Assembly (NCBI RefSeq): GCF_002019695.1
Contig: NZ_KV917376.1
Coordinates: 4,842,072 to 4,906,071 of the forward strand
Reading direction: 5' to 3'
Length of the DNA stretch: 64,000 nt
DNA from: Evansella clarkii
GTDB lineage: Bacteria; Bacillota; Bacilli; Bacillales; Salisediminibacteriaceae
Numbering within the stretch: position 1 is the stretch's first letter; the number at the start of each line of letters is the position of its first letter. Below are positions 929-10,205 of the stretch, in pieces. The position numbers and the translations under genes are program-made. The notes under the pieces are model-generated. The model was not told the DNA's origin. It worked only from the letters and a program-made list of their open reading frames with translations, and searched no databases.

Positions 929-1213
929 TCAGCAGCAGTCTGATTCAGTCCCTGTCATCATTAATCCCTTGCCTTCAGGTGTTTCCCTGACCTCCAGAGT
1001 AAGTTCCTTTGTCTGGGAATAGATAGTTTCATCAAACCCTACCTTAATACCGTTAATTTCTTCTATTACATCATCTTCTGTTGCCTCATCCAGAGACAAA
1101 CCTAGCTGCGGGCCTCCTCAGCCCATGCCTGCGAAGAAGACTCGGATATTTCCGGCATTGTGCTCTTCCATTAGTTCTTGTATAAAGCTTTTAGCCTGAT
1201 CTGTTATAACCAT
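929..1213 (-). CDS. HesB/IscA-like protein with in-frame TGA, candidate selenoprotein
   Basis: Reading from ATG 1213-1211 (ribosome site GAGGTGAAACT just upstream) gives 31 residues, then TGA at 1120-1118, then 62 more residues in the same frame to TGA 931-929 followed at once by TAG. With the first TGA read through the product has 94 residues. The context is FFAGMG-[TGA]-GGPQLGLSLDE and the C-terminus is ESDCC. IscA/HesB proteins bind iron or Fe-S clusters through a Cys in this G-x-GGP loop plus a C-terminal Cys pair, so the TGA falls exactly on the conserved Cys. HesB-like selenoproteins with Sec at this place are known in other Firmicutes. Both halves read as intact protein and the gene has its own ribosome site and terminator. 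Alternatives are a recent nonsense mutation or a sequencing error in a Cys codon (TGC/TGT to TGA). No selA, selB, selC or selD lies in the window. Confidence 0.72.
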
Positions 1214-1325: not shown

Positions 1326-2075
1326 TTACCAGTACGGTGCTCTGTTGTAATAGGAATATAAATCAACTTCCATTTCCCGTGATAAAGGGATTTCCGGCAA
1401 GTATTCCGGTGAGTTTTCCACTTGCTCTTTTGTAACATTCGTCTGTATCTGCGCTTTTATCCAGTCAATGTTTTCCACCCAGTCAGCAGAGATCAGGACT
1501 TTTTTTCCGCCAAAAAATTTCCTTGTATCTATAACAAAATAACGTACTTTATAGGAATCTTCCTCTATAAGCAGGTCTTCTACCTGACCGAAGGAATCGT
1601 CCTGCGCTGCAAATTCGTAACGGATAATATCCTTTGCTTTGTAGATTTCCGGTTCTCCTTTACTATCTTCCTCAGGCTCCGGCATAGCCACTGGCTGCTG
1701 GGCAGCGAGCTCCCTTGCAGTAAAACTGGTCCCCCACACTCCAGGTCCTGTCCAGTATGGGTTCAGGCCATAATGAGTATGGAAATTTGTTTCGTACGTT
1801 CTGTCAATCAATTCTCTCCCTTCTAACCTGGGGGCGTTTTCAGCTTCTTCTTTAGTTATATCTGTTGTTATTACTTCATCGTTAACATTTATACTCTCAA
1901 TGGAAGCAGGAGAAATATACATTTTTTCTCCGGAAAACCAATTTCCTGTTTTGACTGTAAAATATCTGATTGTCAGATCCTTTTCATCAATTAAGGCATC
2001 ATCCACACTACCAAAATCTTCGTCTTTGCCAACTACATCAAATGACTTCAGCCAGCTTTTAAAATGCATCAGCAT
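1326..2075 (-). CDS. Protein with two PRC-barrel domains
   Basis: About 249 residues from the chosen ATG at 2075 (MLMHFKSW), with an AGGAAGTGG ribosome site. An ATG at 2156 in the same frame would add 27 residues unlike the family. Two PRC-barrel units are visible: residues about 1-75 (DEDFGSVDDALIDE, then VRYFTVKTGNWF) and about 135-215 (DDSFGQVEDLLIEE, then VRYFVIDTRKFFGGKKVLIS). PRC barrels are small beta-barrels found in photosynthetic reaction-centre subunit H, RimM and many stress proteins. The C-terminus is Tyr-rich. No enzyme motif is seen and its role is unknown. Another two-unit PRC protein (YrrD) is at 20707-21207. Confidence 0.8.
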   Translation of the reverse strand: MLMHFKSWLKSFDVVGKDEDFGSVDDALIDEKDLTIRYFTVKTGNWFSGEKMYISPASIESINVNDEVITTDITKEEAENAPRLEGRELIDRTYETNFHTHYGLNPYWTGPGVWGTSFTARELAAQQPVAMPEPEEDSKGEPEIYKAKDIIRYEFAAQDDSFGQVEDLLIEEDSYKVRYFVIDTRKFFGGKKVLISADWVENIDWIKAQIQTNVTKEQVENSPEYLPEIPLSREMEVDLYSYYNRAPYW

Positions 2076-2246
2076 GGGATCACCACTTCCTTTCCCGGAA
2101 AGGATTTTATATATTATTTTCCCTGTACGGATATTTGTAAAACAGTGGATCTGCATTACAAAAAATTATTTCGGTTTTCGAATATTTTTGGTAAAATAAT
2201 ATGAAGGTTCAGAATTTACTTTTTTATATAAGAGAGGGGTAATTAA

Positions 2247-9209: not shown

Positions 9210-9452
9210 CTCTTTCACTCCTCCAAACTAAATCAAGGTTCCTCTTAGCGAACGCTTACATTAGTCTATTTTACAAGCATTCGTTTGAAATTAAAGCTAT
9301 CAGGAAACGGCTTTGTTTAACCATATGAAGCCTGAACAAAAAATTGATTAATAATTTATTTATAAAGGCCCTTTACAGTATAAATTTTGAGTAGTATTTC
9401 CACCTAAAAGAATTAATACTCATGAGCCCCGGTCTCTCTTAAATAAATGGGA

Positions 9453-9501
9453 AGCGCCCAGTTATTCTGCCACCCATTTGGAGGCAGCCCACTGGAGCGC
9501 T
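9453..9501. repeat. Nested inverted repeat in the udk-greA gap
   Basis: In the 360-base gap 9210-9569, arms AGCGCCCAGT (9453-9462) and ACTGGAGCGCT (9491-9501) pair with one bulged base, and inside them CTGCC (9467-9471) pairs with GGCAG (9483-9487). It may be a terminator for udk (about 70 bases after its stop) but the T tract is poor on both strands. The rest of the gap shows no gene; the greA promoter must lie in it. Confidence 0.55.
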
Positions 9502-9569
9502 GTTTTACAAGCATACATAAAGTATTCTTTACCGTTTCTAACAACTTTTTCCTTGTTTATCTAATGCTA

Positions 9570-10205
9570 TTACAAAATCGATTTTTCTTCAAGAATGGTT
9601 TTAATTTTTGTAACCATTAAATCTATCGCAACCTGGTTATGGCCTCCCTCAGGGACGATTATATCTGCATAACGCTTCGTAGGTTCGATGAATTGAAGAT
9701 GCATGGGACGCACAACGGAAGTATACTGGTCAATAACAGAATCAATCGTTCGCCCCCGCTCCTTAATATCACGCATAAGTCTGCGAATAATACGCACATC
9801 TGAATCTGTATCAACAAATAACTTAATATCCATCATATCTCTCAGCCGTTCATCTTCAAGAATTAATATTCCTTCAAGTATGATAACATCCCGCGGTTCA
9901 ATGATAGTTACATCATCTGACCTTGTATGTTTTGCATAATCATATACCGGCTGTTCTATAGTTTCACGGTTAATAAGTTTTTTAAGCTGATCCAGCAGCA
10001 AATCGTTATCAAATGCCAGAGGATGGTCGTAATTCGTTTTCAGTCGCTCTTCCATTGGAAGATGAGTCTGATCCTTATAATAAGCGTCCTGAGCGATCAT
10101 CAGTATTTGCTGTTGTTCAAATTTATTGTATATCTCTCTTGCTACAGTTGTCTTGCCAGAGCCTGAACCACCTGCAACACCGATTATAACAGGCTTTTTC
10201 TCCAT
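9570..10205 (-). CDS. udk: Uridine kinase
   Basis: 211 residues, full length. Phosphorylates uridine and cytidine with ATP or GTP for pyrimidine salvage. The P-loop [14 protein letters not shown] is at residues 9-22, the substrate region has [12 protein letters not shown] and NYDHPLAFD, and [17 protein letters not shown] forms the lid. Its ATG shares one base with the trhP2 stop (TAATG), so translation is coupled to the tRNA hydroxylation operon upstream. Confidence 0.96.

Follow-up and report, generated by a model that had tools for sequence, protein, structure and literature searches.

A hesB-like gene of Evansella clarkii with an in-frame TGA: a very probable selenoprotein gene with a covarying bSECIS-like hairpin

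Is the single TGA inside a short hesB-like gene of Evansella clarkii a sense codon for selenocysteine (Sec), or does it mark a lesion? The gene, here called hesB, lies near one end of the 64,000-nt stretch of genomic DNA that was analysed (the window). A sequence-only reading had placed it at 1213-929, intact on both sides of TGA 1120-1118 between GMG and GGP, and had credited it with a good start site, two C-terminal Cys and a terminator. All of these were recovered at their positions, and the features of the locus are the following.

1213-929, minus strand: predicted HesB/IscA-like selenoprotein gene, 94 codons with Sec as codon 32, plus the stop TGA 929-931
1120-1118, minus strand: TGA codon 32, predicted to be read as selenocysteine
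1224-1219, minus strand: Shine-Dalgarno-like GAGGTG, read from the sequence, 5 nt before the ATG
1099-1081, minus strand: bSECIS-like hairpin, stem 1099-1093 with 1087-1081, loop UGGAU 1092-1088
937-932, minus strand: C-terminal Cys93-Cys94, conserved in the family genes
908-883, minus strand: intrinsic terminator-like hairpin with a T run, from terminator search and folding energy

From the ATG at 1213-1211 onwards, TGA 1120-1118 is the sole in-frame interruption, and the terminal stop TGA 931-929 is followed by TAG. With U at codon 32 the product has 94 residues (MVITDQ...FFAGMGUGGPQLG...TESDCC), so that GMG before and GGP after the codon give the motif G-U-G-G-P. GAGGTG or GGGGTG also stands upstream of hesB in the relatives whose sequence was displayed. 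The terminator search returned one hairpin (0.6 expected in shuffles), the stem of which has a folding energy of -20.2 kcal/mol (z -3.3), and no sigma-70-like promoter was found between window positions 600 and 1500, where 2.0 were expected. Cys93 was present in 25/25 and Cys94 in 23/25 family genes (codon and Cys conservation were counted with L035 and L009 left out), and the two residues are probably the partners of Sec32. The terminal TGA (CC-TGA-TAG) was also weighed as a second Sec codon, and this was rejected: since the final codon of 27 relatives is TAA in 18 (that of L035 being premature), TGA in eight and TAG in one, it was taken as an ordinary stop. Upstream of hesB, window positions 1326-2156 encode a PRC-barrel protein with two matched stretches; the profile of the photosynthetic reaction centre H-subunit matches it too, with a score far under the cut-off.

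In bacteria, a TGA inside a reading frame is frequently a lesion, and on this general ground hesB might be decaying through a nonsense mutation. Relatives were compared at codon 32. Of 35 family genomes, 27 have a TGA in their best hesB match (49-99% identical), in all 27 at the equivalent of codon 32, and the frame was open from the TGA to the C-terminal Cys in 26 of them, which argues against decay. The remaining gene, L035, is broken further downstream and is the one case that speaks for it; its genome (G017, 76% complete) is the sole TGA genome of the family without selB above the cut-off and has no selA match. In total, selB exceeded the cut-off in 29/35 family genomes, including 26 of the 27 with TGA; three others (G011, G015, G016) have selB and lack hesB. 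Among the rows compared, L084 (31% identical) was set aside as a distant IscA-like gene; further second matches with TGA are L049 in G028 and two weak ones, G034:C7 and G021:C12. The E. clarkii genome itself contains a second homologue, 31% identical, and more distant homologues have Cys at the position of codon 32. Two genomes of the window's genus (G014, G019) have, besides the stand-alone gene, a second TGA hesB beside arsA (L046, L047).

The search for sel genes that the sequence-only reading had proposed found the Sec machinery in hesB's own genome (G000, 5.48 Mb): selB (363.6 bits) and selA (544 bits), both above the cut-off, tRNA-Sec (Rfam RF01852, 62.2 bits) and selD, all inside 6.2 kb at about 1.7 Mb from the window. 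The selD gene has an in-frame TGA of its own (KAG*GCKIGPEDL), as have two formate dehydrogenase-like genes of the same genome (ARI*HSSTV), so that several selenoproteins are apparently produced in this cell. Short repeats, which translate as FSKSGIQLS and SLVAILA units, lie beside selB and overlap selA in the sel cluster (L039:5809-6305 and 9447-9977), and fragments of an IS21 istB and of a tyrosine recombinase adjoin the cluster.

In a sample of 397 genomes of the order, 159 had a match with an E value of 1e-15 or lower; 133 of these could be classed, as having a TGA form or uninterrupted forms only, among the matches listed (E to about 4e-18). Among the matches listed, selB accompanied the TGA form in 88/89 genomes and occurred in 3/44 genomes with only uninterrupted forms, all three of which also have selA. 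The association of TGA form and selB over the 133 genomes was strong, even though these are not independent of each other (Fisher p 1.5e-29). The TGA genome without selB (1e-70), G405, has no selA match either. Its TGA hesB (L114, G405:C15:465000-473500) is situated in an ars operon and keeps 5/7 pairs of the hairpin described below; a recent arrival, a decaying gene or a missing contig are possible explanations. Because selB was above the cut-off in 179/397 genomes, Sec use is common in this Bacillales sample, and the earlier remark that few Bacillaceae are known to use Sec needs amending.

Sec insertion would call for a bSECIS element in the mRNA, and a weak hairpin had been drawn just after the TGA (CAG with CUG, AGG with UCU, loop UUUG). 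This candidate was dropped: only 73.1% of its cells were paired in the family and its covariation score was reached by 82/500 shuffles, that is, the pairing is not conserved. The supported hairpin lies elsewhere. A hairpin with a stem of 7 bp inside the coding sequence at 1099-1081, nucleotides 19-37 after the TGA (+22 to +40 from the T of the TGA), was paired in 97.3% of cells over 26 distinct family rows (82.9% in shuffles), with 25 cells in which both partners had changed (8.1 in shuffles) and a covariation score of 0.446 (0.200 in shuffles); each of these three values was reached by 0/500 shuffles. Two further measures were weaker: compensatory changes were found in 4/7 pairs, a number that 10/500 shuffles reached, and there were seven further pair types, which 186/500 reached. 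A frequent swap was GGCUC/GAGCC to GGCGC/GCGCC. When the partner was shifted by 1-3 columns, pairing fell to 32-58%. Codon 41 was CTG in 25/25 genes and codon 42 GAT in 24/24 Asp codons, the 25th row having Glu; Glu codon 51, outside the hairpin, was likewise frozen (GAA in 24/24), which leaves little weight to a frozen codon by itself.

Section 5 of PMC13188914 gives limits for bSECIS elements, namely an apical loop of 3-9 nt with G among its first two positions, a stem of 4-16 bp, 16-37 nt from UGA to the apical loop and a minimum free energy of -7.5 kcal/mol or lower. By these limits, as that section words them, the hairpin at 1099-1081 qualifies with its 5-nt loop, 7-bp stem, G in the first two positions of UGGAU, spacing of 25 nt and -8.1 kcal/mol (25-nt stretch 1102-1078, z -2.45). 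The longer 49-nt stretch from the UGA folded no better than shuffles (z 0.92, 168/200 shuffles as good). At the level of the order, 74 TGA rows, not all independent, kept 7/7 pairs in 55 cases, 6/7 in 17 and 5/7 in two. The compensatory changes that preserve this pairing are a second argument against decay, and together with the constant codon and the open frame they make the nonsense-mutation explanation almost negligible.

In 16 Cys rows the hairpin was kept as 6/7 pairs in L037, 5/7 in L038, 4/7 in one row and 1-3 in the rest. Twelve of these rows came from a motif-pattern search and four were added (L080-L083, 2/7 pairs each). The pattern had passed over the genuine genes of L080-L083, which all have Cys, and those of L105 and L121, and had given one false row, a methyltransferase-like match in L083; in L105, TGA and hairpin are present. 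On the tree L037 and L038 group with Sec forms (support 97/95), and they come from genomes without selB above the cut-off, which suggests a change from Sec to Cys with a remnant hairpin. In the tree of 83 short proteins 18/80 inner branches are open, and hence we put no figure on the Sec/Cys switches.

A different account of the same codon is that UGA is recoded to a residue other than Sec, Trp or Cys, or undergoes random read-through. Cys would suit the protein, given the Cys of distant homologues at position 32. Against this stand the presence of selA, selB, selD and tRNA-Sec, the tracking of the TGA form by selB, the covarying hairpin within bSECIS limits and the use of TGA as terminal stop in 8/27 relatives, and we regard such recoding as very improbable. 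Decoding of UGA codon 32 as Sec, as the sequence-only reading had proposed, is instead supported by the sel machinery, the conserved TGA, the covarying hairpin, the other TGA genes and the co-occurrence with selB; on sequence grounds it appears close to certain (probability about 0.96). Of the outcomes that the sequence-only reading had named as refuting, a genome lacking selB/selC did not occur, and decay was seen in one of the 27 relatives only (L035). In the proposed mechanism, hesB would encode a 94-residue selenoprotein of the HesB/IscA fold, and SelB with tRNA-Sec would recognise the bSECIS hairpin within the coding sequence and decode the UGA as selenocysteine. Sec32 and the C-terminal Cys pair would then probably form a selenol/thiol site that would bind a metal or metalloid, or carry out redox chemistry on it.

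To which protein class does the product belong? Pfam gave no match for the hesB product at an E limit of 0.001; under a looser limit PF01521 matched, below its own cut-off. Of the NCBIfam profiles, scored with Cys substituted for Sec, TIGR01911 (HesB_rel_seleno) reached 55.9 bits (E 5e-15; cut-off 66.35) and NF038090 (IscA_HesB_Se) 50.7 bits (E 1.8e-13; cut-off 85). As the TIGR01911 score is under the cut-off, the name "HesB-like selenoprotein" is used here for the predicted product without formal membership in TIGR01911. An AlphaFold model in which Cys took the place of Sec32 had a pLDDT of 86.9, and a PDB search with it returned E. coli IscA (1r94) as top match (TM 0.78), which places the product in the HesB/IscA fold; the top eight structure matches were 17-27% identical. 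The UxGP motif given for HesB-like selenoproteins in the part of PMC13188914 that describes them is present as U-G-G-P, with an in-frame UGA at U. With TIGR01911 proteins the window protein shares size, HesB homology and predicted Sec at the first conserved Cys; it differs in scoring under the curated cut-off and in belonging to a Bacillales branch. HesB-like selenoproteins are, as the sequence-only reading had noted, a known class (TIGR01911, UxGP), to which the window gene adds a new member. The relevant part of PMC5029168 records them for 86 organisms in 2016, and Table 2 of PMC1794560 has three selenoproteins for Bacillales in 2006. A literature search on selenocysteine in Evansella found nothing, and one on selenoproteins or selenocysteine in Bacillaceae found nothing but a study of tick flora, judged by its title.

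For the function, the neighbourhoods of relatives offer a lead. In 18/27 family loci a ZnuA/MntC-type lipoprotein gene (PF01297, E 1.6e-82) precedes the Sec hesB in the same orientation, with its end about 74-134 nt upstream of it, e.g. L042:6975-7994; in L024 the lipoprotein match is split in two, and the part closer to hesB ends at 84 nt. No obvious permease or ATPase gene was seen near the lipoprotein-hesB pair in the ORF listing of four contexts. In the E. clarkii genome hesB adjoins neither an ars operon nor a lipoprotein gene, the lipoprotein homologue lying elsewhere, and its own conserved neighbours (the PRC-barrel gene upstream, a foldase-like gene downstream) gave no functional lead. 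A TGA in the E. clarkii lipoprotein homologue was rejected as a Sec codon, being at the edge of the match and before the signal peptide.

The second recurrent neighbourhood is arsenic resistance. Among 83 different proteins with flanking DNA, an ars gene was nearby in 13/71 Sec rows and 12/12 Cys rows, and, where 6 kb or more of sequence was available, in 9/43 and 5/5, respectively, in a set of loci that is not a random sample and in which many flanks are 1.5 kb. The Cys loci missed by the pattern (L080-L083) also have ars genes nearby. On the plasmids pBO1 of Cytobacillus oceanisediminis and p1 of C. firmus, a TGA hesB with hairpin ends an arsenic operon, in the order arsR-arsB-arsC-arsD-arsA-trxB, a dual-specificity phosphatase gene, then hesB, under which no feature is annotated:

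L093:20001-20270 (pBO1): plasmid Sec-type hesB, TGA and hairpin
L094:15001-15276 (p1): plasmid Sec-type hesB, TGA and hairpin

On a Priestia plasmid a Cys hesB, annotated as adhesin, follows arsC-arsD-arsA and the phosphatase gene. Five Cytobacillus plasmids have no feature under the hesB match in the PLSDB gene table, which is incomplete and so no proof of omission in the original records; the two that were checked read TGA with the hairpin intact. A Sec hesB is thus easily overlooked.

A HesB-like gene in an arsenic operon has been described for Bacillus sp. CDB3 in the relevant parts of PMC4562236 and PMC5481582, the main texts of which contain no 'seleno-' words. According to the passage on ars1 in PMC4562236, the HesB-like Orf7 belongs to an arsRYCDAT operon and has a gene for a dual-specificity phosphatase as its neighbour; the same two genes stand together on the Cytobacillus and Priestia plasmids, in the opposite order. 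Compared with Orf7 as described there, the window hesB is a stand-alone, predicted Sec form outside ars operons. Among the papers listed on HesB with arsenic and selenocysteine and on selenoproteins with ars operons, no title or opening of an abstract described a Sec HesB in an ars operon.

The IscA fold and these neighbours of relatives, arsenic operons and the Mn/Zn-type lipoprotein gene, are the ground for supposing that the site formed by Sec32 and the Cys pair acts on a metal or metalloid, for which we see roughly even odds. Also compatible with Sec, the protein could be a usual A-type Fe-S carrier in Sec form, serving as IscA/ErpA do, with no role in metalloid or metal uptake. IscA and SufA are the nearest folds, and TIGR00049 matches at E 3e-7. 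IscA/SufA/ErpA carriers thus share the fold with the window protein; they differ from it in that it has predicted Sec for the first Cys and a C-terminal CC. A-type carriers of the IscA/ErpA kind have a C-terminal C-x-C ligand pair, and the hesB product ends in SDCC. Moreover, the carrier profiles score far below the cut-off (30.7 vs 58.8 bits), the second homologue in the genome may fill the IscA/ErpA role, and many relatives are part of ars operons or follow the gene of a metal-binding lipoprotein. A plain carrier role is in our view rather unlikely.

Taking the metal or metalloid role further, we tentatively propose that Bacillales may possess a widespread HesB-like selenoprotein system for metals or metalloids, the stand-alone form being seen with Sec only and often placed behind a Mn/Zn-type lipoprotein gene, and the ars-operon form being Sec or Cys and carried by plasmids into hosts that perhaps decode Sec. 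The biochemical role in this scheme is an inference. For the biology of the family, the locus provides a putative bSECIS element backed by covariation in an uncharacterised selenoprotein class, and the natural Sec and Cys versions with their distinct neighbourhoods would make the function of HesB-like selenoproteins testable in bacilli.
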